Positions 4,124 through 37,149 of a stretch of 45,374 nt of DNA are shown here, one piece after another. The DNA is taken from positions 1-45,374 of the forward strand of contig JANQFB010000333.1 of assembly GCA_028278085.1 (NCBI GenBank), read 5' to 3'. The first letter of the stretch is position 1, and each line of letters begins with the position of its first letter. The translations under genes were made by a program, and so were the position numbers. Under the pieces are notes generated by a model that saw only the letters and a list, made by a program, of their open reading frames with translations, had not been told where the DNA came from and did no database searches. This stretch comes from Chitinophagales bacterium (GTDB lineage Bacteria; Bacteroidota; Bacteroidia; Chitinophagales; JANQFB01).

Positions 4124-4286
4124 TTGAGGATTTAACTGAAAACAGGCATTTGCCGGAGCAATCCCGAAAAAAGCCCCCTTTCCTATCCTCCCCTGGGCCC
4201 CAAAAACGACGGAACCTAAACCATCCATCAACGAATTACAAACTCGTCCGTCAGCAATAAGGCTGGCTTTGAGGACATTTTATATG

Positions 4287-8385: not shown

Positions 8386-8542
8386 CAGCTATAATCCTTT
8401 AATTTACAGATACAATTTAATAAGTATATTATTTCTGGTGAACTTTTCTATCCCTTCATACGTTAAAACGCAACAATAACATCTGACCCAAAAGAAATTT
8501 GCGGTTGTCTGATACTCATCCATTACTTGCCAAATCGATTGT

Positions 8543-11027: not shown

Positions 11028-11912
11028 TTACCGGCTTAAGATCAATTTTTGATATTTCAGTTCACCATTGCCGGTCAAATATTTCAACACATAAACGCCA
11101 GCAGGCAGTGTGGTTCCGTCGATCTCGAATTGATAGATATGGTTAGCTTCGGCCATACCTTTGAACAATTCCCTGGAAACCTGACCGTTGACATGCACCA
11201 GGCTAATGGTAACCGGTCCGGCATGGGAAGCGCTATATACGACCTGTGCCCGGCCGGAAAACGGATTCGGGTAAGCTTCAATGGAAGCCTGGCTAACCTG
11301 CTCCCCGGATTGGGGGCCGAGGTTGCTGTTTTTGGGAATGATCACACCGCCGCAACCTTTTCCGGGTGTCCAGGAAGTAACCCCTGAATTGACGGCAAAG
11401 CAGGAATTCTGGTAAGTTACGCCATCACAGCCACAAACCGGTGCGGCTACTGCAGGGCAAATGGGAGTCGGATTGATCTTGTCAGGATCGATACAACCGC
11501 ATACACCCTTGGTAAAGGCCGTAACGCCGCCTCTGTTGATAGCAACACAGGCATTGCCGTAGGTATTACCGTCACAACCGCAAACCGGATCATAAACGGC
11601 AATACAACCAATGTTCGGATCGATCTGATTGGGATCGACGCAATCGGCGTCGCAGGGTCCTAGCGTAGCCCCTTGCGCCAGCAAACGTTGAACTCTACTC
11701 TCTTTGACACAAATGGTCCTGGAACCATTATCATCAGAGCTTGCAGAGGACCCGGATGAATTCGAGTCGGAACCAATGGTGTGGCAGAGCTGAACCTTAT
11801 TCCCTTTTTTCCCGCAGGGGAAATGCTGGTTATAAGATTGTCCGTAGCCGGTTGTCACGTAAATCGTGAAAACAGCGAGCAAAAAAATGCCCTTGTGTAA
11901 TGTTTTTGTCAT
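11028..11912 (-). CDS. T9SS-exported protein with two Kazal-type inhibitor domains
   Basis: A secreted protein of 294 residues. A longer frame starts at TTG 11939, but ATG 11912 opens the signal peptide (MTKTLHKGIFLLAVFTIYVT...GYGQ). After it comes a cysteine-paired segment common in Bacteroidota exoproteins (KVQLCHTIG ... TICVKESRVQRLLAQGATLG). Two Kazal-like domains follow, each with C..VYDPVCGCDGNTYGNAC / C..VAAPVCGCDGVTYQNSC, which in eukaryotes and some bacteria inhibit serine proteases by a substrate-like loop. The C-terminus is a Por sorting domain (YPNPFSGRAQVVYSAS ... LPAGVYVLKYLTGNGELKYQ). It is likely displayed on or shed from the cell surface as a protease inhibitor; the target protease is unknown. 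Confidence 0.85.
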   Translation of the reverse strand: MTKTLHKGIFLLAVFTIYVTTGYGQSYNQHFPCGKKGNKVQLCHTIGSDSNSSGSSASSDDNGSRTICVKESRVQRLLAQGATLGPCDADCVDPNQIDPNIGCIAVYDPVCGCDGNTYGNACVAINRGGVTAFTKGVCGCIDPDKINPTPICPAVAAPVCGCDGVTYQNSCFAVNSGVTSWTPGKGCGGVIIPKNSNLGPQSGEQVSQASIEAYPNPFSGRAQVVYSASHAGPVTISLVHVNGQVSRELFKGMAEANHIYQFEIDGTTLPAGVYVLKYLTGNGELKYQKLILSR

Positions 11913-12060
11913 AACTAGTAGGTTTAAATGACTCCACAAAAGTGTGGATTACCCTAAATATAATAAAATTTATATGATAGGGTATAAAAATCAGATTAAA
12001 ATATATTTTGGCAGGCTTCAAGGCCGGATGGACAAGCACCATCGGAAAATTATCAATACA

Positions 12061-14703: not shown

Positions 14704-15315
14704 ATGAGCGATCCACCGCCATTTGAAGTAACCGCCAGTCTGCAGTTGAAAAATATGGTCAGCAGGAGTTGCATAAAGCTGGTGCAATTGCATTTCAGCG
14801 GTGTAAAAGGTGTCCGTATACTGGAGGCGCATTTGGGCTTTGTAAAATTTTCCTATGAACCCCGGCTGATCAAACCCGCGGAAATTGAACGGCAACTCCG
14901 TGAGCTGGGATTTCCGGAAGTCAAAGATCCGGAAGAAAAGCTGGTGGAAGAGATCAAAATAGCCGCCATCGAACTGATCCATTATGCCTATAATGCCAAT
15001 TCACTGATCCGGAATTCCGATTACCTCAGCCAGAAATTAGGGATGTCATACCCCAAAATGAGTAAAGTTTTCTCGGAAAAAACCGGGGTTACCCTGGAAA
15101 AGTACCTGATCGCCCTGAAGATCGAAAAGGTCAAGGAATTATTGAGCAGTGAAGAATACACCCTGAGTGAGATCGCTTTTATGTTCGGTTATAGCAGCGT
15201 TCAGTATTTGTCCAATCAATTCAAAAAGATCACCGGGTTAACCGTTTCCGAATTCAAACAACAGCCCAAAGCCCACCGCAAGACCATCGAGGAGTTGCTC
15301 CCGGATCTGATCTGA
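14704..15315 (+). CDS. AraC-family regulator with degenerate HMA-like N-terminal domain
   Basis: 203 residues. Residues 12-75 resemble the ferredoxin-like HMA (heavy-metal-associated) fold fused to AraC regulators in Bacteroidota. The usual metal motif (MVCxRC-like) here reads NMVSRSC (residues 17-23), so the first cysteine is serine and thiol-pair metal binding is probably lost. Residues 85-190 are a two-helix-turn-helix AraC DNA-binding domain (SDYLSQKLGMSYPKMSKVFS ... TLSEIAFMFGYSSVQYLSNQ ... ITGLTVSEFK). It probably binds DNA and may sense a ligand other than soft metal ions. It lies 180 bp upstream of, and in line with, the RRE/ATP-grasp operon, so it may control it; this is inference from position. 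Confidence 0.85.
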   Translation: MSDPPPFEVTASLQLKNMVSRSCIKLVQLHFSGVKGVRILEAHLGFVKFSYEPRLIKPAEIERQLRELGFPEVKDPEEKLVEEIKIAAIELIHYAYNANSLIRNSDYLSQKLGMSYPKMSKVFSEKTGVTLEKYLIALKIEKVKELLSSEEYTLSEIAFMFGYSSVQYLSNQFKKITGLTVSEFKQQPKAHRKTIEELLPDLI

Positions 15316-15495: not shown

Positions 15496-15744
15496 ATGAA
15501 AGTAAAACGCAATTTGGCACTGAGTGATTCGGGTTTCTTGTTTAATCCTTCCACGGGCGACTCTTTTTCCATCAATCCTATCGGCCAGGAGATCTTTCAC
15601 CTGTTAAAAGAAGGCAAAAGCCAACAAGACATTGAAAAGTATATCCTCGAAAACTATATGACCGATAAAGACACCGTGGAAAAAGATTTCTATGATTTTA
15701 CGGTCATGCTCAAAAACTTCAAGCTGGTAGAAGACAATGAGTAA
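15496..15744 (+). CDS. PqqD-like RiPP recognition element (RRE) protein
   Basis: An 82-residue stand-alone protein of the PqqD fold. The opening strands (NLALSDSGFLFNPSTGDSFS), the turn INPIGQEIFHLLKEGKSQQD, and the closing helices (IEKYILENYM ... VEKDFYDFTVMLKNFKLVE) match the pattern of PqqD/RRE proteins. In known systems these hold a peptide leader as an added beta-strand and deliver it to modifying enzymes. Here it is the first gene of an operon and overlaps the ATP-grasp gene by 8 bp. No separate precursor-peptide gene was found beside it. The third gene's product begins with a leader-like YxxPxI motif and is the obvious candidate ligand. A weak -7-like TACCTTTA lies at 15395-15402. Confidence 0.85.
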   Translation: MKVKRNLALSDSGFLFNPSTGDSFSINPIGQEIFHLLKEGKSQQDIEKYILENYMTDKDTVEKDFYDFTVMLKNFKLVEDNE

Positions 15745-16786
15745 GCCGACATATACCATCGCGGTAACCGGCCTGAATGCTATCGACAGTCCCGGGCCGG
15801 GCCTGGCGGTTATCCGGGCTTTGCATGATGCCGAAAGTTTCCGTGTGAAGATCATAGGCCTTTCCTATGAAGCGCTGGAACCCGGCATTTACATGCACGA
15901 CCTGGTCGACAAAACCTACCAGATCCCTTTGCCGGCGGCAGGATTGGAGATCTTGTACGAGCGGCTGAAATATATCGATTCGGTAGAAAACATAGACTTC
16001 CTGTTCCCGAATTTCGATGCCGAGCTGTATAATTTTATCAAGCTGGAAGAGCGCCTGGCGCAAGAACATGACATCAAAATGGTTATCCCGACCCTCGACC
16101 AGTTTGAATCCCGGCATAAGGTCAACCTCTATGAATTCGGGAAAGAGCATGGCATCCTGGTACCCAAAGCGGATATGATCTTTAACCCCTCCGATATCAG
16201 AACCGCCATGGAAGATTATACCTTCCCGGTGGTGGTCAAAGGAAAATTTTACGACTCCGGCATCGCCTATTCCATAGACCAGGCCACCAACTATTTTAAC
16301 AAGCTCAGCGCCAAATGGGGGGTACCAGTACTGTTGCAGGAATTTGTGCATGGGTCGGAAGTGAATGTATGTGGGGTTGGGGATGGCAAAGGCAATACCC
16401 TCGGAGCAGTACCTATGCGCAAGCTGTATATTACCGACAAGGGGAAAGCCTGGGCCGGTGTGGCGCTGGACGACAAGCAACTTCTGGATATCACTTACAA
16501 ATTGGTGAAATCCACCAACTGGCGCGGACCGTTTGAACTGGAATTCATGAAAACAACCGATGATGACTATTATTTACTGGAAATAAATCCACGGTTTCCG
16601 GCATGGTGCTACCTTACCGTAGGTACCGGCCAAAACCAGGTTGAAACACTTGTCAACATGGGCATGGGTAAGCCGGTGAAAGCCTTTAAGGATTACCAGG
16701 TCGGTAAAATGTTTATCCGCTACAGTTACGATATGGTAGTCGACTTATCGGAATTCGAACAGATCTCCACCATGGGAGAATTATAA
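15737..16786 (+). CDS. ATP-grasp ligase (carbamoyl-phosphate-synthase-like)
   Basis: 349 residues. There is an N-terminal Rossmann-like pre-ATP-grasp domain (YTIAVTGLNAIDSPGPGLAV ... NIDFLFPNFDAE). The ATP-grasp core has nucleotide-binding lysines and glutamate (FPVVVKGKFYDSGIAYSID; PVLLQEFVHGSEVNVCGVGD) and the magnesium-binding segment ELEF ... YLLEINPRFPAW (Glu and Asn ligands). Such enzymes activate a carboxylate as acyl-phosphate and join it to an amine or similar nucleophile; many make peptide bonds. The acceptor cannot be deduced. Translation is coupled to the RRE gene (8-bp overlap), suggesting the two act together on a leader-bearing partner. Confidence 0.9.
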   Translation: MSKPTYTIAVTGLNAIDSPGPGLAVIRALHDAESFRVKIIGLSYEALEPGIYMHDLVDKTYQIPLPAAGLEILYERLKYIDSVENIDFLFPNFDAELYNFIKLEERLAQEHDIKMVIPTLDQFESRHKVNLYEFGKEHGILVPKADMIFNPSDIRTAMEDYTFPVVVKGKFYDSGIAYSIDQATNYFNKLSAKWGVPVLLQEFVHGSEVNVCGVGDGKGNTLGAVPMRKLYITDKGKAWAGVALDDKQLLDITYKLVKSTNWRGPFELEFMKTTDDDYYLLEINPRFPAWCYLTVGTGQNQVETLVNMGMGKPVKAFKDYQVGKMFIRYSYDMVVDLSEFEQISTMGEL

Positions 16787-16864
16787 GATCAAAAAAACAA
16801 GCGCAACAAGGAAGACGCCGCTGTAATGGCAGAAAGTGTCCCCGATACTTAAAAAATTTATGGC

Positions 16865-18220
16865 ATGAAAAGACAATATGAACGTCCGGTTATTCAAAAG
16901 TTAAATACCGGGATCATGAATAAATTCGGCACCCGAACGGAATACGAACCCTATACGCATATCGACGGTGTATCGGTCAAAAGCCTGATCGAGCAATTCG
17001 GATCACCTGTGTTCGTCATGTCCGAACGGACGATCCGGGAGAATTACCGGGACGCGGTCCGGGCTTTTACCACCCGGTATCCGAAAGTACAATTTGCCTG
17101 GTCCTATAAAACCAATTATCTCAATGCCGTATGTGATGTTTTCCACCAGGAAGGATCATGGGCGGAAGTGGTATCGAGATTCGAATATGAAAAAGCGCTG
17201 CATAACGGGGTGCCCGGTAATAAGATCATATTTAACGGACCTGACAAAACGGATGATGATCTGACAGTAGCCATCGAGAACAACTCCCCGATCCATATCG
17301 ACCATCTCGATGAACTGTACCGCCTGACCCAGCTCGCAAGCGACATGGCTAAAAGACCTAATGTGGCCATCCGGATCAATATGGACACGGGCGTGTATCC
17401 CATGTGGGACCGCTTCGGCTTCAATTATGAAAACGGAGCCGCATGGGATGCCATCAACAAGATCATGACCTCCGACCATTTGAACCTGGTAGGTTTGCAT
17501 ACCCATATCGGAACCTATATGTTATCTCCCAGCGCCTATGCGGCTGCGGCCACCAAGATGTGTGACCTGGCCCTGGGTATCCGGAGAAAATACGACAAGG
17601 TGATCGAATACATCGATATGGGCGGAGGATTTGCTTCCAAAAACACTCTGAAAGGCGCCTATTTACGGGGTAGCGATACAGTACCGGGGATCGACGAATT
17701 TGCGGAAGCTATCTCATCGGCTTTCCTGAATGCGGAGTTTAAGAAAGGAGAGCTTCCTTACCTCTACCTGGAAACCGGGAGGGCACTGGTTGACAATGCA
17801 GGCTTTTTGTTGGGGAGTGTTATTTCCAACAAACGGCTTGCAGATGGCCGGAGGGCAACGATCATGGACTTCGGCGTTAACATTTTGTTTACCTCCTTTT
17901 GGTACGACCACAAAATATCGCCGGCACAAGGTTTCGGTACCTATACCGAAGATACCGTGATCTATGGTCCTTTGTGCATGAATATCGACGTGGTGCGGGA
18001 AAACATTTCCCTACCTCCCCTGAAAGCCGGTGATCATGTCGTTGTCCACTATGTCGGCGCTTATAACATCACCCAATCCATGCAATTCATCGCCCTCAGG
18101 CCTCCTGTGGTGATGATCGATATGCAGGGCAAGCCCCATATCATCAAAAAGAAAGAAGTGCTGGCGACCCTCGAAAAAGATGAAGTAACACCCGATTACC
18201 TGAAGGAATTCAAACTCTAG
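16865..18220 (+). CDS. PLP-dependent decarboxylase (Orn/DAP/Arg family) with leader-like N-terminus
   Basis: 451 residues of the alanine-racemase-fold (type III) decarboxylase family. Visible residues: Lys82 (WSYKTN) for PLP; His214 (GLHTHIGTY); GGG at 253-255 for the phosphate; ETGRALVD (about 303-310); Cys371 (YGPLCMNID); and Tyr400 (VGAYN). All main catalytic positions are kept, so it should be active on a basic or diamino acid, but specificity is open. The first 22 residues precede the normal family start and read like a RiPP leader (YERPVI, residues 5-10, then NKFG). An internal ATG (16916) could give a form without that motif. A 78-bp gap separates it from the ATP-grasp gene; the fusion gene follows after 6 bp. 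Confidence 0.9.
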   Translation: MKRQYERPVIQKLNTGIMNKFGTRTEYEPYTHIDGVSVKSLIEQFGSPVFVMSERTIRENYRDAVRAFTTRYPKVQFAWSYKTNYLNAVCDVFHQEGSWAEVVSRFEYEKALHNGVPGNKIIFNGPDKTDDDLTVAIENNSPIHIDHLDELYRLTQLASDMAKRPNVAIRINMDTGVYPMWDRFGFNYENGAAWDAINKIMTSDHLNLVGLHTHIGTYMLSPSAYAAAATKMCDLALGIRRKYDKVIEYIDMGGGFASKNTLKGAYLRGSDTVPGIDEFAEAISSAFLNAEFKKGELPYLYLETGRALVDNAGFLLGSVISNKRLADGRRATIMDFGVNILFTSFWYDHKISPAQGFGTYTEDTVIYGPLCMNIDVVRENISLPPLKAGDHVVVHYVGAYNITQSMQFIALRPPVVMIDMQGKPHIIKKKEVLATLEKDEVTPDYLKEFKL

Positions 18221-18226
18221 GGTTTA

Positions 18227-20416
18227 ATGAAGCTTAGATCTATAGCAGACACCTATGGCCAGGGGCTGTTGCTGAGTTACTCCCAGATCTTCTTTTCCAA
18301 CAGTAAGATCCTGGGCGTGATTTTGCTGGCAGCGACATTTTTCGACATCAATGCCGGGATTGCGGGTATCATCAGCATCATCCTCGCCCAATTGTTCGCT
18401 TCATGGTTCCACTTTGAAAAAGCCTTTATCAAAGATGGCATGTATACCTATAATTGTTTGATGGTCGGTCTGGCCATCGGGGTATACTATGATTTCAATA
18501 TCTCCTTTTTCCTGTTGCTGATCATTGCTGCTTTGATGACTTTCTTTTTGACTATCTGGTTAGCCAATGTAACATCGCGACAGAACCTGCCCTTTCTCAG
18601 CATGCCCTTTTTGATCGGGGTTTGGGCCATTTTGTTGGGGGGCAAGAATTTCTCGGCCCTGAAGCTGAAATTCAGGGGATTTTACACCATTGCCGACCTC
18701 CCCAAGTATCATAATTGGTTCGATCCGCTGGAGAACTGGATCAATGCCCTATCGATCCCCGATCCATTGATCATTTTCCTGAAGTCATTGGGGGCAATAT
18801 TTTTCCAGTATAATATCCTGGCAGGACTGCTGGTGGCCCTCGGCATCCTCATCTATTCCCGGATAGCCTTTGTGCTGGCCTTCACCGGCTTCATCATCGG
18901 CTATGGCTTCTATTTTTATTTCGAAGGGAATTTTTCTCAATTGATCTATTCCTATATCGGCTTCAATTTTATCCTGACAGCCATTGCCCTGGGCGGATTT
19001 TTCGTGGTGCCCTCGAGGAAGTCCTTTTTATTGGTGATCCTGGCCATCCCGATCATTGCCCTGGTCAGCAGTGCCACGCATTCTTTATTAATAACCTTTA
19101 ACCTGCCCCTTTATTCCCTGCCCTTCAACCTGGTTGTATTCCTAGTACTGATGTCATTAGGCTTGCGCACAAGATCCGCCGGTCTCGACCTGGTAGTTCA
19201 ACAGCAATTCTCTCCCGATCAGAATCATTATAAACATTTCATTCGACTGGAACGGTTCAAATCCAATACCTTGTTCCATATCCAGCTCCCTTTCATGGGA
19301 GAATGGTTTGTTTCCCAGGGCCACCAGGGCGATGTAACCCACCGCGGGGAGTGGGCCGAAGCATGGGATTTCGATGTCAGGGATCCAGGGGGAAAATCAT
19401 TCCGTGATCCGGGAACTCAGGTGAAAGACTATTATGCTTATGACCTGCCGGTACTTGCACCCGCCGACGGTCAAGTGGTGGAAGTGCTCGACGGCATTCC
19501 TGACAATCCGGTCGGGGAACAGGATCTCGACAATAACTGGGGGAATACGATCATCATCAAACATGGGGATATGTTGTATAGCAAGATCTCCCATGTTAAG
19601 AATGAAAGCTTCAAAGTCGGTAAAGGGGAAGTGGTCAAAAAAGGGGATGTGATCGGACTATGTGGTAATTCGGGCCGTTCCCCCGAACCCCACCTTCATT
19701 TTCAATTGCAGTCGACTCCCTATATCGGATCGAAAACCCTTTCCTACCCGGTTAGCTATTATCTCTCCCGGAGATCCGGGCAACTGCAATTCCATAGCTT
19801 CGAAGTACCCGAGGCCGGAGAATTTGTTTCAAACATCAGGATCACACCGCTGCTGGAAAAAGCTTTTAAATTCCAGCCCGGGCAGATGTTACACTGGTCA
19901 TGGGATCACCAGGGAAAACAAGAGCAGGTGAGCTGGGAAGTATTTACCGATGCCTATAAATACAATTATATCTATTGCCAGCAGTCAGGATCGTATGCCT
20001 ATTTCATGAACGATCAGACCATGTTTTATTTCACCGATTTTTCCGGCAGCAAGCGCTCCCTGCTCTATCACTTTTACCTGGCAGCCCAAAAGATCTTGTT
20101 GGGCTATTACCCGGAAATTTCCTGGCGGGATAAATTGCTCATCCATGGCTTTTTTAACCCGGTGATCCAGGGGATGCATGATATCACCGCTCCCTTTTTC
20201 CATTATTGCCGGGCGGATTTCGAAGCTTCCTTCACTTCGGTGGATGATTCAAATAATCCAAAAGCCCTAACTTTGAGCACCCTGGCCAGTGCGCGGATAT
20301 TCCATCAAACCGTCAGGGAACTGCAATTCGAAATCGAGCTCGCGCAAGACAGTATTTCCTCACTAAAGATCACGGAATCGGACCGTTCCTCTCTAGCCAC
20401 ATGCGTTATCGCCTGA
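18227..20416 (+). CDS. Urea-transporter-like domain fused to M23 peptidase
   Basis: A 729-residue fusion. Residues 1-320 contain about ten hydrophobic helices with the two pseudo-repeated urea-transporter signatures (MYTYNCLMVGLAIG near 80 and YIGFNFILTAIALGGFF near 250). Residues about 365-500 are a LytM/M23 metallopeptidase domain: His372 and a following WDFD supply the first zinc ligands, and HLH (489-491) the last. In between are VLAPADGQVVEV, WGNTIIIKHG and the serine-rich CGNSGRSPEPH loop. M23 enzymes cut peptidoglycan cross-bridges or similar peptides outside the cytoplasm. The last 230 residues are a soluble domain of unknown type. It is in the middle of the RRE operon, 6 bp after the decarboxylase, and overlaps the next gene by 16 bp. 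Confidence 0.88.
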   Translation: MKLRSIADTYGQGLLLSYSQIFFSNSKILGVILLAATFFDINAGIAGIISIILAQLFASWFHFEKAFIKDGMYTYNCLMVGLAIGVYYDFNISFFLLLIIAALMTFFLTIWLANVTSRQNLPFLSMPFLIGVWAILLGGKNFSALKLKFRGFYTIADLPKYHNWFDPLENWINALSIPDPLIIFLKSLGAIFFQYNILAGLLVALGILIYSRIAFVLAFTGFIIGYGFYFYFEGNFSQLIYSYIGFNFILTAIALGGFFVVPSRKSFLLVILAIPIIALVSSATHSLLITFNLPLYSLPFNLVVFLVLMSLGLRTRSAGLDLVVQQQFSPDQNHYKHFIRLERFKSNTLFHIQLPFMGEWFVSQGHQGDVTHRGEWAEAWDFDVRDPGGKSFRDPGTQVKDYYAYDLPVLAPADGQVVEVLDGIPDNPVGEQDLDNNWGNTIIIKHGDMLYSKISHVKNESFKVGKGEVVKKGDVIGLCGNSGRSPEPHLHFQLQSTPYIGSKTLSYPVSYYLSRRSGQLQFHSFEVPEAGEFVSNIRITPLLEKAFKFQPGQMLHWSWDHQGKQEQVSWEVFTDAYKYNYIYCQQSGSYAYFMNDQTMFYFTDFSGSKRSLLYHFYLAAQKILLGYYPEISWRDKLLIHGFFNPVIQGMHDITAPFFHYCRADFEASFTSVDDSNNPKALTLSTLASARIFHQTVRELQFEIELAQDSISSLKITESDRSSLATCVIA

Positions 20417-21786
20417 TCCTGCTGTTGATACTTTGCACAGGCGCACTATCCGCCCAGGAAGCGCTTACTTTCAAAAAGGTGGATGCCGGTACTTATCAAT
20501 TGTACCTCGATAAAGACTGGACAGGACTGATTACCCTGGGAGAACAGGCCATCGGGCAGGGATTCGATTACCATTACCTGAACCTGAGGATCGGCATCGC
20601 CTATTTCGAGACCCGTCAATATTTCCGGGCCATGGAATATTTTGACCGGGCGCTGGAGCAAAACAGCAGCAGTGAGATCGCCCGCGACTATTTATATTGG
20701 TGCTACCGCTATACCGGCCACCTGTTCAAGTCTTCCCTGTTGTTTGACAAATTACCGGCAACCACCCAAGAGAAGTATCAAAAACCCTATCCCAGGGCGC
20801 TGGATTATTTTTATACCGAAGGCGGTTACAAGATCAGTACTATTCCCGATGAGCAGGGCCATATCACCTACCTGAGCGCCGGCATGGGTCATTATCCCCT
20901 GGCCAGGCTTCATATTCATCATGAGTTTACACATTTGCGCCAGGAGCAATTCTGGGGCAGCTATGCACAAAATCAATATTACATTTCCCCGCAATGGTAT
21001 GCCGGTAAAGGATTCATTATCCAGCCTGCCTTCCATATATTGGGCTTAAAAGGTGATCTAAACCTCGACTTCCCGATCCATTCGGTGAGAGATACCATGG
21101 TAACCGTGGGGAATCCGCCACAGCAAAGAGGGGCAAGGTTCATCGTGGAAGGAGCGGATAAATACAGGGGGGAATTAAAGCAAACAGGTGTGCTGATCAA
21201 CCTGGGCTTTCGCAAACAATGGAAAAGATTTTACATCCACCCCTATTTTTCCCGGTTGAATTACCGCTTTCAGCAAATGGCTAATGTCGAAAGCGTGCAT
21301 AAGCTTACGCTGGATATCGGGAATCCGCCTCATCCGCCGATCATCATTGTACGGGATACAACCTTTCAACATCCGGAACATGCGGATTCCACCAGCACGT
21401 TTACACAGATCGGAATTTCGGCCAGGTATACACCACCCATCTGGCAAGACCGTCTGCAAATTGGGCTGGCTATTCACCGGCAACGCTATGAGCAGGAGAA
21501 TTACCACGCATTTGTGCCGGAATTGGGCTTGCAATTGCATCAAAAGATCAGGATTCTGCTAAAATATTATTCGGGGAATGGTATTTTTGTAGCCGAAGAA
21601 AACGGAGCCTGGATACAAAATACCTTGGAGCCGATCCCGCAAAAAATGACTTTTTTAGTCGATTACCAGATCAAACCGGGGATCAATATTTATGGCGTGT
21701 ATCAACGGGAAACCAGGGATGACATTTCTCAAACATCGACATATCATTTTAATTCATTATTCACCGGTATAAAATTCAGATTATGA
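20401..21786 (+). CDS. TPR plus outer-membrane barrel protein
   Basis: 461 residues. A signal peptide (MRYRLILLLILCTGALSAQ) is followed by about 100 residues of tetratricopeptide-like helices (YHYLNLRIGIAYFETRQYFR, AMEYFDRALEQNSSSEIARD). Then come about 300 residues of alternating short strands rich in aromatic residues, ending FNSLFTGIKFRL, consistent with an outer-membrane beta-barrel. The general plan resembles YaiO-type barrels, but I cannot confirm this. The gene begins inside the last codons of the fusion gene (16-bp overlap) and overlaps the next by 4 bp, so it belongs to the same operon. It would be the outer-membrane part of the system. Confidence 0.75.
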   Translation: MRYRLILLLILCTGALSAQEALTFKKVDAGTYQLYLDKDWTGLITLGEQAIGQGFDYHYLNLRIGIAYFETRQYFRAMEYFDRALEQNSSSEIARDYLYWCYRYTGHLFKSSLLFDKLPATTQEKYQKPYPRALDYFYTEGGYKISTIPDEQGHITYLSAGMGHYPLARLHIHHEFTHLRQEQFWGSYAQNQYYISPQWYAGKGFIIQPAFHILGLKGDLNLDFPIHSVRDTMVTVGNPPQQRGARFIVEGADKYRGELKQTGVLINLGFRKQWKRFYIHPYFSRLNYRFQQMANVESVHKLTLDIGNPPHPPIIIVRDTTFQHPEHADSTSTFTQIGISARYTPPIWQDRLQIGLAIHRQRYEQENYHAFVPELGLQLHQKIRILLKYYSGNGIFVAEENGAWIQNTLEPIPQKMTFLVDYQIKPGINIYGVYQRETRDDISQTSTYHFNSLFTGIKFRL

Positions 21787-22400
21787 AACGATTCGTCTTT
21801 TCCTTACTACTGGCTGCGAGTTTGGGTACTCATGCCTTTGCTCAGGATAATGCCAAAGTGCTGGATGCCTTTATCAAAAGTTTTGGCTACGAACAATATG
21901 AGAATTACCCAAAAGCCATCCAGGTTATGATGGAAGTTTATGATTCCAAAAATTATGTGATGAATCTGAGGATGGGATGGCTGAACCATATGAAAGAAGA
22001 TTTTGTCAAAGCCAAGCAATATTATCAAAAGGCTATCGAGCTACAGCCGAAATCCATCGAGGCCCGCCTGGGTTTCGTTAATCCTGCTGCTGCCCTGGGT
22101 AACTGGGATGAGGTGATCAAGAAATATGACGAGATCCTGGAATTGGATCCCAACAATACCCTGGTCAACTACCGGATGGGATACATTTACAATACCCGTA
22201 AAGATTACCCGACCGCCCGGACCTATGCCCAGAAAGTGCTGGACCTTCACCCCTTCGACTATTCCGCCAATGCTTTGATGGGTTATATAGAGAAAGGATT
22301 GGGCAATACGGCCAAAGCGATCGCCTACCTGGAAATTGCATTACTCTACAATCCGAATGATCAGACGATCAAGGATGAACTGAATAATATCAGGAATTGA
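21783..22400 (+). CDS. Periplasmic TPR protein
   Basis: 205 residues. A signal peptide (MKRFVFSLLLAASLGTHAFAQ) is followed by four to five tetratricopeptide repeats (VMNLRMGWLNHMKEDFVKAK, AIELQPKSIEARLGFVNPAA, EILELDPNNTLVNYRMGYIY, VLDLHPFDYSANALMGYIEK, IALLYNPNDQTIKDELNNIR). TPR arrays bind peptides or partner proteins. It is the last gene of the operon that starts with the RRE gene, translationally coupled to the barrel gene through ATGA. It may form the periplasmic scaffold that joins the M23 domain of the inner-membrane fusion to the barrel; this is inference. Confidence 0.8.
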   Translation: MKRFVFSLLLAASLGTHAFAQDNAKVLDAFIKSFGYEQYENYPKAIQVMMEVYDSKNYVMNLRMGWLNHMKEDFVKAKQYYQKAIELQPKSIEARLGFVNPAAALGNWDEVIKKYDEILELDPNNTLVNYRMGYIYNTRKDYPTARTYAQKVLDLHPFDYSANALMGYIEKGLGNTAKAIAYLEIALLYNPNDQTIKDELNNIRN

Positions 22401-22530: not shown

Positions 22531-24894
22531 TTACCGCGAGGTCAGGATCTCAAATCCATAAGCCGGCAGGGTTAAATTCACCGATCCTTCGTTGATTGTC
22601 GATTCGGTGCCGAATTGTGCCGTTAACGGGCTTCCGGCAAAACGTGCGGGCAGTAGGAATTCCACCGGCATGGGCTCGGGGGACTTATTAAAGGCCACCA
22701 CGCAGATCCGGTCAAAATATGTCCGGCAATAGACCATCGATAACGGCCGCATCCGGATCCACTCAAAATCCCCGTAAAGCAAGGCCATGTTTTCCTTCCG
22801 GATCCGGATCAGTTTCCGGGCAGTTTCGCGAGTCTTGTTTTCCATCGGTTTGAGATCCCCGAATTGCATCGGCCTCCGGTTGTCCGGATCACCGGCGCCA
22901 GGCATACCGAATTCGTCACCATAATAGATCACCGGTACACCCGGAATAGTTAGCATAAAGGCTGTTAACGCCGAAAGTTTGGCATAGCCGGCCTCATCGA
23001 CAACCTGTATATCCCGGTTCCAGCCGGCTTTTTTATCATCTTCCGCAAAGGTCATACCCCCTCCGGCAAAGGATATAAACCGGGGGATGTCATGATTTCC
23101 GGTGATATTGCCCATCAGGTGATGATAACCGTACCAATCGAGAGATTCCCGGAGGGAACGGGCAAGGTCCGGGAAAGTGCTGTTATCCGAAGCAAAAGCG
23201 GTACGAGCATCGAAATATAAGTTAAAATCGAACTGGCCGTCCATCTGGCCGCTTCCGACATAGCTGCCGATCAACTCACGACTGCCGAAGGTTTCTCCGA
23301 TCTGGAATACCGGACGGTTCTCCGTAACGATGACCTCCTTTTTGAGTTTCAGGGTGAGGGCCCGCCAGAAAGTTTCCGGGATATGCTTGGTGGCATCATG
23401 GCGGAAGCCGTCGAGGCCGAAATGCTTGATCCAGAATAGCGCGGAATCCACTTGGGTTTCGATAACCTCGGGACGCGAAAAATCCAGGCTCGGCAAGAAG
23501 GTATCGAACCAGGTGGTTAATCGTTCTTCCTCCCAGATCCGGATGTTTTTCCGGCCATCAGGCAGATCGAGCGTGGTAGCCCATTCCGGATGTCGGCGGA
23601 AGATGGGATGATCCTCATGGACATGATTCGCCACAAAATCCAGGATGAGGTTCAGGTCCTGATCATGTGCGGTCCGGGTGAGGGTAAGCAGATCCTGGTT
23701 ACTGCCAAACCGGTGATCAACCCTGGATGAGGAGATGGGCCAGTAACCATGATAACCCGAATATTTCCGGTGCGGCGCCGGGAATTCCGTGTAGGCCTTC
23801 AGGGGGTTTTGGGTCAAAGGTGATACCCAAATGGTATTGATCCCTAATTCCCGGAAAAAGCCCTCCTCGATCTTTTGGGTGATACCGGCCAGATCACCGC
23901 CCCAATAATTCGCCTTTTCATGCACCTCCGGATCTTGTACCGGATCATCCAAAGTCTTATCCCCATTATGAAAGCGGTCGATCAACAGAAAATAGAGGAT
24001 GGCCGAAGCCTTGTCATGCCGGGTTAAGGTCGAGGGATCGCGGATCGCCTGTCCGTTTTCCAGGGGAATGAGCAGATCATTCCCAAAACCATGGCTATTA
24101 TGGGCAAATACCCGGATGAATGACCGCCCGATCTGTTTGGCGGCTGCCGGAATATCCAGGCTAATACCTTTTTCAGGGCTGATGCGTACATTTAGCCGGC
24201 TATTGTTCCAGAAAGCGAAAATCGCCTCGGCCGTGAGCTCCTGTCCTAAAATAATCGTCTGCCCGGCTGCTGAGCTGGTAAATAACCTGGGGGCCTTATC
24301 TTCCGAACCGGCGCTCAATACCAGCGAAGAGTTGAACCCACCGATATTATTATCCACGGAATCCGGATTGCCCGGATCGAGCATCCACGTGCCATCCACA
24401 ACCAATTGGTATTGATAGGCACCGGGGTTCAGCTCCAGCATGGCTTGCCATTTTCCGTCGATCAAACGCATGGGGGTCCGGGCGGGATCCCAATCGTTCA
24501 AAGATCCGGCAACGCTAACCGATCGATAGGAATTCCCGGCAGGATCGAATACGAGGGTATGCCTGATCTTTCTCGATCTTTTTAACAGGATGGATGCCGC
24601 CTGCCCCTTGATCCACAGCTTGAGATCGAGTAAGGGAGGGATATCCTGTTCCACCACCAGGGTCAACAATTGTTTATCCGGGCTCCATGACGATCGCAGC
24701 CCGCCGGGAATATCCAGGCTGTCGATCTTATCGACTTCCGGCACAAAATCTTGCATCCAAAGGATAGTGGTGTCCGGCTGCAGGCTAACCGGCATGATCA
24801 GGCCCGGTATCGCATGGATCGGTGCGGGTGAATGGCTCTGCTGACAGGCCCAAAACCCGCCAAGGATGATAAGAAGGAATTGCTTTTTGATCAT
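22531..24894 (-). CDS. GH13 alpha-amylase/neopullulanase-like enzyme, lipoprotein candidate
   Basis: 787 residues. There is an N-terminal signal with a possible lipobox cysteine (FLLIILGGFWACQQ, Cys17; the box is not ideal). A starch-binding E-set/CBM48-like module lies at about 110-195 (VSVAGSLNDWDPARTPM ... YQYQLVVDGTWMLDP). The GH13 barrel spans about 295-700 with the nucleophile Asp500 (GLDGFRHD), the acid/base Glu534 (FQIGETFG) and the stabiliser Asp602 (GNITGNHD), and a C-terminal beta-domain closes the protein. It should hydrolyse alpha-1,4-glucans at the cell surface or in the periplasm. It is the last gene of a four-gene operon, 13 bp after the second GH13 gene. There is no SusC/SusD pair next to it. 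Confidence 0.9.
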   Translation of the reverse strand: MIKKQFLLIILGGFWACQQSHSPAPIHAIPGLIMPVSLQPDTTILWMQDFVPEVDKIDSLDIPGGLRSSWSPDKQLLTLVVEQDIPPLLDLKLWIKGQAASILLKRSRKIRHTLVFDPAGNSYRSVSVAGSLNDWDPARTPMRLIDGKWQAMLELNPGAYQYQLVVDGTWMLDPGNPDSVDNNIGGFNSSLVLSAGSEDKAPRLFTSSAAGQTIILGQELTAEAIFAFWNNSRLNVRISPEKGISLDIPAAAKQIGRSFIRVFAHNSHGFGNDLLIPLENGQAIRDPSTLTRHDKASAILYFLLIDRFHNGDKTLDDPVQDPEVHEKANYWGGDLAGITQKIEEGFFRELGINTIWVSPLTQNPLKAYTEFPAPHRKYSGYHGYWPISSSRVDHRFGSNQDLLTLTRTAHDQDLNLILDFVANHVHEDHPIFRRHPEWATTLDLPDGRKNIRIWEEERLTTWFDTFLPSLDFSRPEVIETQVDSALFWIKHFGLDGFRHDATKHIPETFWRALTLKLKKEVIVTENRPVFQIGETFGSRELIGSYVGSGQMDGQFDFNLYFDARTAFASDNSTFPDLARSLRESLDWYGYHHLMGNITGNHDIPRFISFAGGGMTFAEDDKKAGWNRDIQVVDEAGYAKLSALTAFMLTIPGVPVIYYGDEFGMPGAGDPDNRRPMQFGDLKPMENKTRETARKLIRIRKENMALLYGDFEWIRMRPLSMVYCRTYFDRICVVAFNKSPEPMPVEFLLPARFAGSPLTAQFGTESTINEGSVNLTLPAYGFEILTSR

Positions 24895-24907
24895 AGCCGA
24901 TCTTGGT

Positions 24908-26320
24908 TTAATTGTAGCAAACGATATAGGCCCATGGCCCCAGGTTCAGCCTGGTTTCCGGATGAATGGCCATTTGTGTACCGGTGAAAAGCTCCTGGTA
25001 TTTACCTTCATAACCTTTGGTCTGCAGGGAAACATCTATGCGGTCCTTCGTCAGGTTCAGCAATACCAATACCTTTTTTTCGTGTTTTTGCCGGATAAAG
25101 GCAAACACCGATTCGTCGTCCGAGCTTTTGATCCGTTGGATATCGCCACCATATGATCCGTTCCACATGACCCGGTGCTCTTTTTTGAAAGCCAGCAATT
25201 TCTTGAAAAAATCTGCCATTGGATGGTCCTGCCAATCGATGGGATCTTTTTCGAAAAATTTCAACCTTTTCGGAAGCCCGGCTTCCTGGCCACTATAAAC
25301 CAGGGGCATCCCCGGCAGGGTATGGGTCATTACGGCAAATGCTTTATAGCCCTCCCCGTATCGCTCATATACTGTTCCGTTCCAGGAGTTTTCGTCATGA
25401 TTGGTGGTAAAATACATCCGGTAATCTTTTTTATTGTATTGCTCTTTTTCCTCTTCCAGGTATCGATCGAGTTCCAGCGCCGATCCTTTGCCTTTGGCAA
25501 TTCTATTCATCAAATGCATCATCCGCCAGGTATAGGTCATATCGAAGGCTTTATGATGTAAATTCGGGGATTCTCCTTCGGCCAGCATAAAAACGGGTTT
25601 GATCTTATCCAGGGCCTTCCGGGCCTTATTCCAGAACGCTACCGGCACCATTTCCGCCACGTCACAGCGAAATCCATCGACGTCATACTCCCGGACCCAG
25701 TACGACATGGCATCGATCATATAATCCTGCAAAGCGGGCTTACTGTAGTCCAGGTCGATAACGTCGGACCAATCGGCTACGGGCGGAATAAAATTTCCCA
25801 GGGAATCTTTGGTATACCAGTCCGGATGATCTTTGGTGAGCGGATTATCCCAGGCGGTATGGTTGGCTACCCAATCCAGGATGACGTACATGCCTTGTTC
25901 ATGGATCTGATCCACCAATTGACGGAAATCCGCCCCGGTGCCATGCTCCGGGTTGACGCCCTTATAATCGCGGACCGCATAATAACTGCCTAGGGTCCCT
26001 TTACGCTGCTCATTACCGATCGGGAAGATCGGCATTAACCAAATTATGTCCACTCCCAGCGCTTTTAAACGGGGAAGATGTTCGGCAAAAGCGGAAAAGC
26101 TGCCCGAAGCGCTGTACTGCCGGAGGTTTACCTCGTAAATGCTCAGGTTTTTCGACCAATCGGGTGGTGTTTTGTTGACCGATGGTACTTCCTGGTAAAC
26201 AGGCGGCGGTTCGGATTCGGATTTTTTAATGAACTCACAGCCGGCCAGCAATAGCCAGGAAGAAAGGATCAAAAGCAGTGGGAATGCCGTCCATAATTTT
26301 GAAGAATTGTGTTTAGTCAT
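24908..26320 (-). CDS. GH13 alpha-amylase-family lipoprotein
   Basis: 470 residues. A clear lipoprotein signal is present (LLLILSSWLLLAGCEF, lipid cysteine at 28). The GH13 catalytic machinery is complete: the first conserved region DWVANH (149-154), nucleophile Asp220 (DVDGFRCD), acid/base Glu248 (FMLAEGE) and Asp309 (FTTNHDE). A short C-terminal beta-sheet domain closes the protein. It has no separate starch-binding module, unlike its operon neighbour, so the two probably divide work on long versus short alpha-glucans. It is 42 bp downstream of the GH31 gene and 13 bp upstream of the larger GH13 gene. It probably acts in the periplasm or on the outer membrane. Confidence 0.92.
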   Translation of the reverse strand: MTKHNSSKLWTAFPLLLILSSWLLLAGCEFIKKSESEPPPVYQEVPSVNKTPPDWSKNLSIYEVNLRQYSASGSFSAFAEHLPRLKALGVDIIWLMPIFPIGNEQRKGTLGSYYAVRDYKGVNPEHGTGADFRQLVDQIHEQGMYVILDWVANHTAWDNPLTKDHPDWYTKDSLGNFIPPVADWSDVIDLDYSKPALQDYMIDAMSYWVREYDVDGFRCDVAEMVPVAFWNKARKALDKIKPVFMLAEGESPNLHHKAFDMTYTWRMMHLMNRIAKGKGSALELDRYLEEEKEQYNKKDYRMYFTTNHDENSWNGTVYERYGEGYKAFAVMTHTLPGMPLVYSGQEAGLPKRLKFFEKDPIDWQDHPMADFFKKLLAFKKEHRVMWNGSYGGDIQRIKSSDDESVFAFIRQKHEKKVLVLLNLTKDRIDVSLQTKGYEGKYQELFTGTQMAIHPETRLNLGPWAYIVCYN

Positions 26321-26362
26321 AAATGCCGGTTTTCAGGTAATATAATGAATGAAAGTATCTTT

Positions 26363-28795
26363 TCAGGAAGTCCAGGATAATACGATCTCCCTATCGGAAT
26401 TAGCTATCTGTAGATAGCCGACAGCTTTGATAGACATGTCACTGGCAGCAGGATGCCCCAGGGGATCGACCTCGGGCAAGGCTTCGGTAAACCGGAAGGA
26501 TCCGGTTTCCACACCGACCGATGTTCCGTTGACCCGGATCGTTTTCATAGCCGGGAATCCGTGCAAAATCACCCTGATCGCAGTAAAATGAGAAGGATAG
26601 CTGCCGCTGCACGCTCCGATCACCATTTGTTGCAGGTCAGGATCATAGCGGAAAGATCTTTGACAAAATTGTCCATTTTCATAAGCATATGAATGCCCGT
26701 CGTCTTCATAATAATCGAATGTTTCAGGGGTTTTGCCGTGATAGATATGCAGATCCATTACCGGTTCCGGTTTATCCTGCAAACTGGCCACGGCCGCTTG
26801 CATGGGCAAACAGCTTCCGGCCCGTACAAACAATGGTAATTTTTCCGGCGGACAATTGACGGCCGCCACCTGCTTGCCGGCGTATTTCCGGTCGGTGAAA
26901 AGATCATACCAGTCACCTTCGGGTAAATAAACAAGACAGATCTTTTCCGTACTGGCTACCGGGCAAACCAAAATCGAGGGACCATACAAGTACTGCTGCT
27001 GAAAAGCCGGCTCAAAAATAGTATCATCGGAAGCATAATCGAAGGCCAGGGACCTGGCTACGGGTAAACCGCTCACGGAAGCCTCATAAAAAAGGCTGTA
27101 CAGATAGGGCATTAACCGGTACCTTAATTTGATATAGTTCCTGGCGATCGCTTCGACGGTTTCTCCGAAGGCCCAGGGTTCGGCGCTTTTGGAATTGATC
27201 ATGGAATGCCCCCGGAAAAAAGGACAAAAGGCACCGATGGATATCCAACGGGCAAATAATTCAGGGCTGGGATCTCCGACAAAACCACCGACATCATAGC
27301 CGGCATTGGCAATACCTGTCAAACCCAGGCTATTGACCAGGCGGACGCCGGCAAGCATATGCTCATCCGATGCCACATTATCACCTGTCCAAACGGCTGC
27401 ATATCGCTGTATGCCGCTGAAGCCTGCCCGCGTGAGGATAAAGGGCCTTTGATCACCGGCATGTTTAAGGGCTCCCTCATAGCTGCTCCTGGCCATTTGC
27501 AGGCCATAGATATTCCTGGCTTTTTTATGGGTAGCTCGTTGACCGTCGTAGTCAAATTCGATCAGGTCGGGCATATGCTGGCCCCAGTTGGCCGGCTCGT
27601 TCATATCATTCCAAAATCCCTTGATGCCTTTGTCGGTATAATAGGTTAGCTGATCACCCCACCACTCACGGGTTTTGGCCTGGGTAAAATCGGGGAAATG
27701 GCTCCAACCGGGCCAAACTTGGGCCGTGTAGGGTTCGCCATCGGGATATTTGACGAAATGATCCGCTGCCAGGCCATCGTCGTAAGGAGGATAACCCTTT
27801 TCCTTTTTAATGCCCGGATCGAGGATAAGGGTTACCTCAAATCCCATGGCCTTCAATTCCTTTACCAGTTCTTCCGGCTGTGAAAACCTTTCGGGATCAA
27901 AGGTGAATACCTTGTATTGATCCATATAATGAATATCCAGGTAGATCACATCCGCCGGAATATCCTTTTCCCGGAATTGCCGGGCGATAGACATCACTGC
28001 TGTGTCCGGGTAATAGCTGTACCGGCATTGGTGGTAACCCAGGCTCCACAAAGGTGGCAGCGGCATCCGTCCGGTCAGCACGGTATAGTCCGAAACAATG
28101 CCGGCAATCGTTTCATGATGGATAAAATAATAATCCATCGGGCCATCGGCCGCCGAAAAATAGGCAAAGCGGTCGTTGGAAGCCCCGAAATTAAAAACCG
28201 TTTGATGGCTGTTGTCCAGGTATATGCCATAGGCCAGCCCCTGTCGAAGACCGATATAAAAGGGGGTGGATAAATATAAAGGATCCGCATCGGCGGGGTA
28301 GGCAAAATGATCCGTATTCCAGTTGATGTATGCCTCGCCTCTCCGGTCGAGGTTGCCGGTTTTTTCTCCCAGGCCAATAAACCTTTCCTGGTCCTGCAAC
28401 GTTTTGTAGCAGGTGACCTCATCTCCGATCCAGGATATCCCGAATGCCTCATCATCGGCATTGAGCAATTCCCCGGAAGTGGTATAAAACCGAATACGCA
28501 GGGGCGTTTTTTGCACGACCACCTTCAACCGGCCGGTGGTCAGTTCGATCTGCCGCTCGTTTTCCGAATGCCGGAAGTCTACAACTCCTGCAGCGGCTGT
28601 CACCGCATAGGAAAAATCGCCGAAAGTCAGACCCTTTTTCCAGGCCTTGCACCGGACGATACCAGCCGCAATCAGCTCCAGGGATACAAAAGCTCCGGCC
28701 GTTTCGAGCTTAAAACCGCGGCTGCCAGCTTCAGCAGCGATAAGGTTACCGATACCTTGATGGCTGTGGTAAAAACCGGCTTTATCGTTTTGCAT
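26363..28795 (-). CDS. GH31 alpha-glucosidase
   Basis: 810 residues. A longer frame opens at TTG 28816; ATG 28795 is preferred. It has an N-terminal beta-sandwich (to about 240), a GH31 barrel with nucleophile Asp397 (GFWNDMNEPANW) and acid/base Asp472 (VWTGDN), and a C-terminal beta domain. The enzyme releases glucose from non-reducing ends of alpha-linked oligosaccharides. No signal peptide is seen (MQNDKAGFYHSHQG), so it should act in the cytoplasm on imported malto-oligosaccharides, in contrast to the two exported GH13 enzymes of the same operon. It lies 40 bp after the kinase gene. The substrate linkage (alpha-1,4 or other) cannot be fixed from sequence. Confidence 0.92.
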   Translation of the reverse strand: MQNDKAGFYHSHQGIGNLIAAEAGSRGFKLETAGAFVSLELIAAGIVRCKAWKKGLTFGDFSYAVTAAAGVVDFRHSENERQIELTTGRLKVVVQKTPLRIRFYTTSGELLNADDEAFGISWIGDEVTCYKTLQDQERFIGLGEKTGNLDRRGEAYINWNTDHFAYPADADPLYLSTPFYIGLRQGLAYGIYLDNSHQTVFNFGASNDRFAYFSAADGPMDYYFIHHETIAGIVSDYTVLTGRMPLPPLWSLGYHQCRYSYYPDTAVMSIARQFREKDIPADVIYLDIHYMDQYKVFTFDPERFSQPEELVKELKAMGFEVTLILDPGIKKEKGYPPYDDGLAADHFVKYPDGEPYTAQVWPGWSHFPDFTQAKTREWWGDQLTYYTDKGIKGFWNDMNEPANWGQHMPDLIEFDYDGQRATHKKARNIYGLQMARSSYEGALKHAGDQRPFILTRAGFSGIQRYAAVWTGDNVASDEHMLAGVRLVNSLGLTGIANAGYDVGGFVGDPSPELFARWISIGAFCPFFRGHSMINSKSAEPWAFGETVEAIARNYIKLRYRLMPYLYSLFYEASVSGLPVARSLAFDYASDDTIFEPAFQQQYLYGPSILVCPVASTEKICLVYLPEGDWYDLFTDRKYAGKQVAAVNCPPEKLPLFVRAGSCLPMQAAVASLQDKPEPVMDLHIYHGKTPETFDYYEDDGHSYAYENGQFCQRSFRYDPDLQQMVIGACSGSYPSHFTAIRVILHGFPAMKTIRVNGTSVGVETGSFRFTEALPEVDPLGHPAASDMSIKAVGYLQIANSDREIVLSWTS

Positions 28796-28835
28796 AGAGC
28801 GGAGAAAATGAAACAAGCATTTTTTTCGGTAGGGG

Positions 28836-29693
28836 CTATTCGATCGTCATGAAATATTCCAGGTGATACCGAACCAACCCGTCAATCGGTTTTTTGATAA
28901 TATGGCCCAGGTTCACCTGCAGTTTTGCGGCTGCCGCTCTTAACAGGTTTTCGAAATGGAAGGCCACCGAACCCACAAAATTGGTTTGGATCCGTTCGTA
29001 ATCCTGGTAACAACAGACATGAACTTTCAGGAACTGTTCCATTCCTTCGGAAACCATCTCCACGAATAGCGGCTCATCCCGATGGGCCCCGATGAATTTC
29101 ATAAACGAAGCCAGGTAAACATTGGCATTGGGCTTCATATAAACCTGTTCCATGATGATATCCTTATTCAGCTTAAATTCGGCTTCGAAGGCCGCATGTA
29201 GAGGTGCAGGTAATTGCTTGTATAAATACATGGCCAGCAATTTCTTCCCATAATAGCTGCCGCTTCCTTCATCACCCAGGATATAAGCCAGCGCCGGAAC
29301 TTCTTCATAGATCTCCCGGCCGTCGAAATAACAGGAATTCGATCCCGTTCCCAGGATACAGGCGATCTCCGGAACACCGCAATAGGTGGCATAAGCAGCC
29401 CCATTCAGATCATGGTCGACCAGTATCTCTGCGCCCGGGAAAACTTTCGCCAGGGCTCTGGCAACAATTTCTTTTAACTCCTTGCTCGAACATCCGGCGC
29501 CGTAATAATAGACCTTGCTGACCTGGTTGGCGTATGGCTTCAGCTCGTCATGCCATCGTAAGGTGTTGGCAATTAAGGTTTCATCATGAAAATATGGATT
29601 GAAGCCCATCGAGTGGGTTTGCATGATCATCTCGCCATCCTTCACCAAAGCCCAATCACATTTGGTAGAGCCACTATCAGCTATCAATATCAT
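28836..29693 (-). CDS. BadF/BcrA-type ATPase, N-acetylglucosamine/sugar kinase-like
   Basis: 285 residues of the ASKHA fold. The phosphate-1 motif near the start (LIADSGSTKCDWALV), the central ILGTGSNSCYFDG and ILGDEGSGSYYGKKLL (phosphate-2 and adenosine regions) match the BadF/BadG/BcrA/BcrD ATPase family, which in Bacteroidota is mostly annotated as N-acetylglucosamine kinase-like. It should phosphorylate a free sugar with ATP in the cytoplasm. As the first gene of the glucan operon it may phosphorylate the glucose freed by the GH31 enzyme, although an amino-sugar role is equally possible. A strong promoter lies upstream (29755-29785), and a palindrome at 29836-29852 is shared with the divergent regulator. 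Confidence 0.82.
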   Translation of the reverse strand: MILIADSGSTKCDWALVKDGEMIMQTHSMGFNPYFHDETLIANTLRWHDELKPYANQVSKVYYYGAGCSSKELKEIVARALAKVFPGAEILVDHDLNGAAYATYCGVPEIACILGTGSNSCYFDGREIYEEVPALAYILGDEGSGSYYGKKLLAMYLYKQLPAPLHAAFEAEFKLNKDIIMEQVYMKPNANVYLASFMKFIGAHRDEPLFVEMVSEGMEQFLKVHVCCYQDYERIQTNFVGSVAFHFENLLRAAAAKLQVNLGHIIKKPIDGLVRYHLEYFMTIE

Positions 29694-35018: not shown

Positions 35019-35223
35019 AATAAATAGTTTATAGTTCGGTTGGCATCATGCCTTCAAACCGTTATTAAGAATAGTTATCCATAGCTGTGGCCGGTCGATT
35101 CAATAGTCAATTAACGGTAAACAATTATTATGCCAAACTACATTTTTTAAATATAAGGATTCTTACCAATAGTAGGCAAGTGAAGCCGGTACCGGCATCT
35201 CCGTAAAATGCCTATATTTGATC

Positions 35224-36513: not shown

Positions 36514-36524
36514 AACCGGATGGA

Positions 36525-37072: not shown

Positions 37073-37149
37073 TAACATATTCCCAAGGCAATAATCATAT
37101 CATCCATACCACCCATTTCGACATTCCTGTCTTGAGGTCAATAGCCCAT

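Follow-up and report, generated by a model that had tools for sequence, protein, structure and literature searches.

The window analyzed here, 45,374 nucleotides of a contig from a Chitinophagales bacterium (GenBank JANQFB010000333.1), carries a six-gene operon. The genes encode a recognition element (RRE) of the kind that guides modification of ribosomally synthesized and post-translationally modified peptides (RiPPs), an ATP-grasp ligase, a pyridoxal phosphate (PLP)-dependent decarboxylase, a urea transporter (UT) fold fused to an M23 peptidase, a protein with tetratricopeptide repeats (TPR) and a putative β-barrel (BAR), and a second TPR protein. Our main finding is that the leader for this RRE appears to sit on the N-terminus, predicted to be disordered, of the decarboxylase itself, no separate precursor having been found in about 110 loci.

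The operon RRE is of the lasso type

Judged by profile and alignment, the RRE is of the lasso type, the kind that binds a YxxP motif. Its best solved relatives by profile are TbiB1 (E = 1.5e-12), TfuB1, PbaB1, and LppB, all of which have been crystallized with Y/WxxP leader peptides (PMC13381572). In LppB, N33 holds the leader kink at the proline and D70 holds the tyrosine hydroxyl, and mutation of either residue impairs binding (PMC13381572). An ungapped alignment places N27 and D64 of the window RRE at these two positions; N27 is present in 190 of 190 aligned sequences and D64 in 178. An earlier note on this DNA had called the protein PqqD-like and leader-binding. The PqqD profile (PF05402) scored 33.1 bits against a cut-off of 23.4, and the TbiB1 and TfuB1 matches together with conservation of the YxxP-gripping residues argue both for leader binding and for the B1-type RRE expected of lasso clusters.

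The genome from which the window derives (L001) has a second PqqD protein on contig C92 (~4107-4307), a lasso-type RRE by its match to NF033536 (98.6 bits, cut-off 80). Beside it are reading frames resembling an HPr kinase and a sulfotransferase, together with a small open reading frame (ORF) that bears WETPQL; apparently this is a conventional lasso cluster, which contrasts with the window operon.

A leader-like tail on the decarboxylase

In alignments drawn from a comparison set of 192 related loci the decarboxylase N-terminus reads M..K..YERPxI..L..G..NKFG. Three of the 192 sequences (L057, L108, and L163) lack the tail in the called ORF and were set aside; in L057 and L108 the tail is readable just upstream in another reading segment, as if by a frameshift, and the start of L163 is truncated as in L057. 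In the 189 intact N-termini P8 and K20 are invariant (189 each), G22 is found in 188, and residue 5 is tyrosine in 178 and phenylalanine in the other 11. The distance from the tyrosine to the lysine is 15 residues in all 184 tails that were matched by pattern. All four proline codons, all four glycine codons, and both lysine codons are in use within the tail; such synonymous variation therefore points to selection at the protein level. The motif is carried by 181 of the 192 decarboxylases by a strict pattern and by 186 when phenylalanine is allowed, and the background is low, a similar motif lying within 30 residues of the start in 6 of 585 neighboring proteins. The tail is absent from paralogous decarboxylases (at most 197 bits), whose alignments to the family begin near position 30, or in one case at position 22. 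In the AlphaFold model the predicted local distance difference test score (pLDDT) is below 50 at residues 1-3 and 7-24, the body being mostly ~90. Hence, the tail is predicted to be a conserved disordered segment, as expected for a recognition motif.

No separate small ORF bearing the motif was found at a conserved place in the ~110 loci, and the tail alone had no relevant match among the NCBIfam precursor families. Candidate YxxP precursors were rejected because they proved to be decarboxylase fragments, in-frame stretches of genes in the operon, or scattered ORFs attributable to chance. The earlier note had inferred that the operon makes or modifies a peptide or diamino-acid product that is processed and carried across the whole envelope; on this view a separate peptide, ribosomal or of diamino acids, would be modified, cut by M23 in the periplasm, and exported via the barrel. 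The joint presence of an RRE, an M23 domain, and outer-membrane-type parts in one operon would suit that picture, but we consider it highly improbable given that about 110 loci yielded no separate leader-bearing ORF at a conserved place, and given the visible contrast with the genuine lasso-type RRE that has its own WETPQL ORF elsewhere in the same genome.

Coupled changes in the RRE and the tail

Tail residue 5 and RRE residue 64 pair as tyrosine with aspartate in 175 loci, phenylalanine with tyrosine in 10, phenylalanine with histidine in 1, and tyrosine with asparagine in 1, with none crossed. In the 11 loci having phenylalanine in the motif D64 is always lost, being replaced by tyrosine in 10 and by histidine in one; no locus with the tyrosine motif has tyrosine or histidine at RRE 64, and the side chain of the lone asparagine can still form hydrogen bonds. 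Of the 82 RRE columns only position 64 tracks the phenylalanine loci, and the normalized mutual information of the two positions (0.81) is the top value of all RRE/tail pairs, the next being 0.40. In a tree of the ATP-grasp protein plus the decarboxylase body the phenylalanine loci form a clade of 10, with L119 standing separately inside a tyrosine-keeping group. Most simply, the switch to phenylalanine would have had two origins with different replacements (tyrosine and histidine), and this is probably what the sequences record. The Fisher value obtained for the coupling carries no correction for relatedness. No other pair of RRE and tail columns is as strongly associated, and we therefore infer that the operon RRE very probably binds the decarboxylase tail.

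Were the tail an ordinary structural or regulatory N-terminus, the RRE would act elsewhere and the operon would be a siderophore-like small-molecule pathway. The decarboxylase is nearest to FslC of rhizoferrin synthesis, and a regulator of the AraC type with a heavy-metal-associated (HMA)-like N-terminus plus occasional multicopper oxidase or resistance-nodulation-division (RND) neighbors hint at metals. However, a tail that is predicted to be disordered, yet is among the most conserved parts of the protein, fits the motif of this RRE class, couples to the RRE at a crystallographic contact, and is lacking from paralogues makes this explanation distinctly improbable.

Lysine 20, the ligase, and the decarboxylase body

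In LPP precursors the motif tyrosine stands at -16 from the leader/core border (PMC13381572). Lys20 of the tail falls at about that border, beyond the leader stretch that touches the RRE in known complexes, and is therefore a natural candidate site for ATP-grasp action.

The earlier note's assignment of an ATP-grasp enzyme is borne out by the ATPgrasp_Ter and ATP-grasp_3 profiles, both of which exceed their cut-offs. The protein also matches PRK12767/CarB-like models (AlphaFold pLDDT 93), and its nearest structures by Foldseek are 2pn1 (CarB-like, function unknown), biotin carboxylase, CarB, an L-amino-acid ligase of the RizA type, and PurK. Residues K128, K168, E267, E269, E282, and N284 are invariant, and these we take to be the expected active-site residues of the fold. 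No graspetide model was found among its matches and no precursor at its locus (~110 loci). By analogy, amide formation is plausible and carboxylation or carbamoylation is possible.

Profile search placed the enzyme among the group IV PLP decarboxylases, with the N and C domains of the Orn/DAP/Arg family, as the earlier note's amino-acid decarboxylase would require. The best solved relative of the enzyme is FslC, followed by LysA and BtrK, and K82, H212, E303, R306, and C371-M372 are invariant. The score against the LysA model TIGR01048 (216.8 bits) lies under the cut-off of 297.9, and the C-E-S specificity motif of LysA, compared through the 1twi alignment, becomes C-M-N. The score against the FslC equivalog model NF041039 (234.3 bits) likewise lies under its cut-off of 500. 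The FslC Cys-Met loop is retained, C371 and M372 being present in 115 of 115 aligned sequences, as is the threonine of the specificity helix (T343 in 114 of 115), the counterpart of T330 being the invariant W346. These Cys-Met and threonine specificity residues have been described for FslC (PMC7857480). FslC, BtrK, and MccE act on amino acids that are conjugated or bound to a carrier, removing a carboxyl group (PMC7857480), and a tail-borne substrate would fit the likeness of the window enzyme to such conjugate-acting enzymes.

The urea transporter-M23 fusion

A transporter fused to a peptidase had been proposed in the earlier note, and both the UT (200 bits) and M23 (59 bits) domains were indeed detected in one protein. 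The UT part is complete, with full-length matches to the bacterial urea transporter (3k3f/3me1) and also to animal ones, and retains both LPxx[ST]xPF-type boxes. The M23 zinc-ligand and catalytic positions H372, D381, H456, H489, and H491 are invariant in the alignment, the spacing of the first histidine to the aspartate being 9 where 4 is usual. The C-terminal domain had no match in Pfam or NCBIfam. Characterized urea transporters have both termini in the cytoplasm, and the charges flanking the UT part weakly favor an inside C-terminus; M23 may therefore lie on the cytoplasmic side, against its periplasmic placement in the earlier note.

A proposed mechanism and its rivals

We tentatively propose a scheme in which the tail, presented by the RRE, is acylated at Lys20 by the ATP-grasp enzyme, and the group so attached is then processed by the decarboxylase; as a whole we judge it slightly more apt to fail than to hold. 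The RRE would grip the YERPxI of the disordered tail, as lasso B1 proteins grip YxxP leaders, and hand the tail to the ATP-grasp enzyme, the gene of which overlaps its own. Using ATP, the ligase would link a substrate through a carboxyl group, such as that in the side chain of an acidic amino acid, to the ε-amino group of Lys20, and the decarboxylase would act on what its tail bears, either in cis or across the dimer. A small product would then be freed, perhaps by the M23 domain, and would exit via the urea-type channel, with the two TPR proteins handling it in the periplasm and outer membrane. That this amounts to a new carrier system, in which RRE-guided charging of a tail lysine lets an enzyme carry the substrate on a swinging arm of its own, is a more speculative claim that we regard as doubtful.

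Several points weigh against the scheme. Binding, Lys20 modification, and decarboxylation are all proposals derived from sequence, and the Phe/D64 coupling rests on few evolutionary events (the clade of 10 plus L119). Conservation of Lys20 could serve ATP-grasp binding rather than an acceptor role, the folds nearest to the ATP-grasp protein include CarB, biotin carboxylase, and PurK, none of which makes amides with lysine, and the sequence is compatible with M23 on either side of the membrane and with more than one function for it.

The same RRE-tail binding data apply if the RRE only docks, joining the ATP-grasp enzyme to the decarboxylase so that a free ligation product is passed on and the tail stays chemically unchanged. 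Pathways of the FslA/FslC type ligate and then decarboxylate free intermediates (PMC7857480), and the UT channel would suit a small neutral product. Docking of this kind accounts for YxxPxI, but not for a Lys20 that never varies, keeps a constant distance from the motif, and lies past the residues that touch the RRE in known complexes, and we consider it unlikely, although it must be taken seriously. Alternatively, the tail might be a true RiPP precursor fused to an enzyme, to be modified and cleaved with a short N-terminal peptide as the product. The layout is leader-like, an invariant lysine followed by F/Y and glycine lies at the leader/core border, the operon encodes an M23 peptidase, of a family that often cuts beside glycine, and the UT topology could put this peptidase in the cytoplasm. 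However, the residues past G22 are not core-like in conservation and lead directly into the enzyme fold, and each product would cost one enzyme molecule, so that we think this reading improbable.

Layout and conservation of the operon

The six ORFs share one strand; where they overlap, they do so by 8, 16, and 4 bp, and the gaps measure 78 and 6 bp, exactly the values given in the earlier note (Table 1). Its periplasmic TPR protein also stands (TPR_2 match and apparent signal peptide), and the last two operon proteins both have apparent signal peptides. Of its outer-membrane TPR barrel, the N-terminal TPR part was found; the barrel half has no family match beyond one weak profile hit (TonB receptor, E = 0.002) and is plausible as a β-barrel from sequence character only.

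Table 1 Operon genes, protein features, and the upstream regulator; positions are those of the window unless residues are given
Feature	Position	Strand	Remarks
RRE gene	15496-15744	+	PqqD family, lasso B1-like
RRE N27	15574-15576	+	Counterpart of LppB N33
RRE D64	15685-15687	+	Counterpart of LppB D70
ATP-grasp ligase gene	15737-16786	+	CarB/PRK12767-like
PLP decarboxylase gene	16865-18220	+	Alanine-racemase fold, FslC-like, product 451 aa
Decarboxylase tail, residues 1-24	16865-16936	+	Leader-like; MKRQYERPVIQKLNTGIMNKFGTR
YxxPxI motif in tail	16877-16894	+	
Invariant Lys20 of tail	16922-16924	+	
UT-M23 fusion gene	18227-20416	+	Urea-transporter fold, M23, and C-terminal domain
UT fold	residues ~8-338 of 18227-20416 product		PF03253, 200.5 bits (cut-off 25)
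M23 metallopeptidase domain	residues 406-495 of 18227-20416 product		
C-terminal domain of fusion	19730-20416		~230 aa; conserved YFTxFxG, DFxAPF
BAR gene	20401-21786	+	Apparent signal peptide, TPR region, putative β-barrel
TPR protein gene	21783-22400	+	Exported; TPR_2 66 bits, apparent signal peptide
AraC-type regulator	14704-15315	+	HMA-like N-terminus, upstream of operon; Pfam HTH_18 63.9 bits

The gene order RRE, ATP-grasp, decarboxylase, UT-M23, BAR, and TPR recurs in loci of relatives, and the six genes are one conserved operon. Co-occurrence, which the earlier note had predicted, was seen in a sample of 396 Bacteroidota genomes: the ATP-grasp, decarboxylase, and full UT-M23 fusion families share exactly 34 genomes and occur in none of the others. 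The ATP-grasp count leaves out one distant match (G370, 29% identity), membership in the decarboxylase family was set at >600 bits (the next paralogue scores 197 bits), and the fusion of G005 was counted although split over two frames, probably by a frameshift. In a second sample, of 395 genomes of the window's class, the operon was found in 76. Hence, it is present in ~9% of the sampled Bacteroidota genomes and 19% of those sampled from the class. The association exceeds chance: across the 192 loci the decarboxylase is present in 192 and the RRE in 191, the sole RRE-less locus (L041) being one where the ATP-grasp gene begins at the contig end. The gene overlaps recur over related loci (RRE/ATP-grasp 74%, UT-M23/BAR 90%, BAR/TPR 77%), and in several loci without BAR a barrel-like protein of ~280 aa comes after the TPR gene. 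A natural split of UT from M23 in L119 was considered and rejected as more like a frameshift.

Among the best 80 of 198 relatives all are from Bacteroidota except one metagenome-assembled genome (MAG) labeled Bifidobacterium and one "uncultured bacterium". The former, the L050 public record (Bifidobacterium breve), holds this Bacteroidota operon and is probably a mislabeled bin. No relatives of the operon were found in a plasmid collection, and no further conserved neighbors or operon partners emerged from the neighbor clusters, regulators and RND genes occurring in at most 14 loci.

Regulators and genomic surroundings

A same-strand upstream homologue of the HMA-AraC regulator is present in 74 of the 192 loci. 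The metal motif of these regulators is NM-x-[C/S]-x-[S/C]-C, with NM-x-C-x-x-C often down to one cysteine; the window has a degenerate NMVSRSC. Multicopper oxidase genes lie between the RRE and ATP-grasp genes in two loci (L036, 3759-5456; L045, 8296-9999), that of L036 carrying a type IX sorting tail. With the regulator at 74 of 192 loci and the oxidase insertions at only two, a copper or metal role is kept as a hint. A hybrid histidine kinase and a LytTR response regulator are encoded near some operons, as at 7475-9721 and 15821-16519 of L110, and form clusters of 11 loci each; in part these are operons for which no HMA-AraC regulator was found.

Elsewhere in the window, a xanthine/uracil-type permease, urate oxidase, and amidohydrolase are encoded in a row (35218-40172), probably for purine catabolism; this row was not seen as a conserved neighbor of the operon in relatives. 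On the opposite strand 22531-29693 holds a glycoside hydrolase block (two GH13-like and one GH31) with a BadF-type kinase-like gene, and 11028-11939 (-) encodes a protein that combines a Kazal-type inhibitor domain and a tail for type IX secretion.

Comparison with known systems

A search of the open-access literature found no description of this gene combination (PqqD, ATP-grasp, decarboxylase, urea transporter, M23), although subscription papers and preprints may exist, and the main text of an RRE survey does not mention decarboxylases (PMC12710340). RREs serve as beacons for RiPP gene clusters, and here the evident target of the RRE is an enzyme. If this is true, RRE-leader recognition would serve more generally for docking or charging, and genome-mining pipelines that seek short precursors would miss such systems. 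The chemistry would be directly testable, since it calls for three proteins, the RRE, the ATP-grasp enzyme, and the decarboxylase, for which solubility is predicted.

The lasso and LPP pairs (TbiB1-TbiA, TfuB1-TfuA, PbaB1-PbaA, LppB-LppA) resemble the operon in having a discrete PqqD-type RRE, a YxxPx[I/L/V] motif, and the gripping asparagine and aspartate. Their motif is on a short precursor with leader and core, whereas that of the window is on a 451-residue enzyme, and neither a lasso B2 protease nor an asparagine-synthetase-like cyclase is found among the six operon products. The enzyme set is thus unlike those of the RiPP classes compared (lasso and graspetide), in keeping with the earlier note's statement that the operon fits no named class. 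The N-citrylornithine decarboxylase FslC/FigC (also SbnH and AcsE) resembles the window enzyme, FslC K63/C354/M355/T327 corresponding to K82/C371/M372/T343. However, the neighbor of FslC is an NRPS-independent siderophore (NIS) synthetase whereas that of the window enzyme, which also has the leader tail, is an ATP-grasp protein. By the tests run on the sequences, the system is neither lasso peptide, graspetide, LysA, nor FslC.

The proposed charging scheme recalls butirosin synthesis, in which the ATP-grasp enzyme BtrJ loads an amino acid onto a carrier and BtrK, of the alanine-racemase fold, decarboxylates it while tethered. BtrJ and BtrK use an acyl-carrier protein; none is among the six window products, and in the scheme the tail of the decarboxylase itself would serve as carrier. 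PylC-type ATP-grasp enzymes join an amino acid to the N-ε of lysine, much like the proposed ligase going by their description, but their substrate is free lysine. Pearlins (3-thiaglutamate, ammosamide) are likewise small molecules built on a ribosomal recognition peptide; they differ in that their aminoacyl-tRNA ligase (PEARL) is absent from the six products, and in that the scaffold here would be fused to an enzyme and charged on an internal lysine rather than the C-terminus. RRE recognition and ligase-then-decarboxylase logic are each known and, as far as can be told, a leader on an enzyme is new; the matching tag on the decarboxylase suggests that recognition which normally marks peptides for modification has been reused to mark an enzyme.

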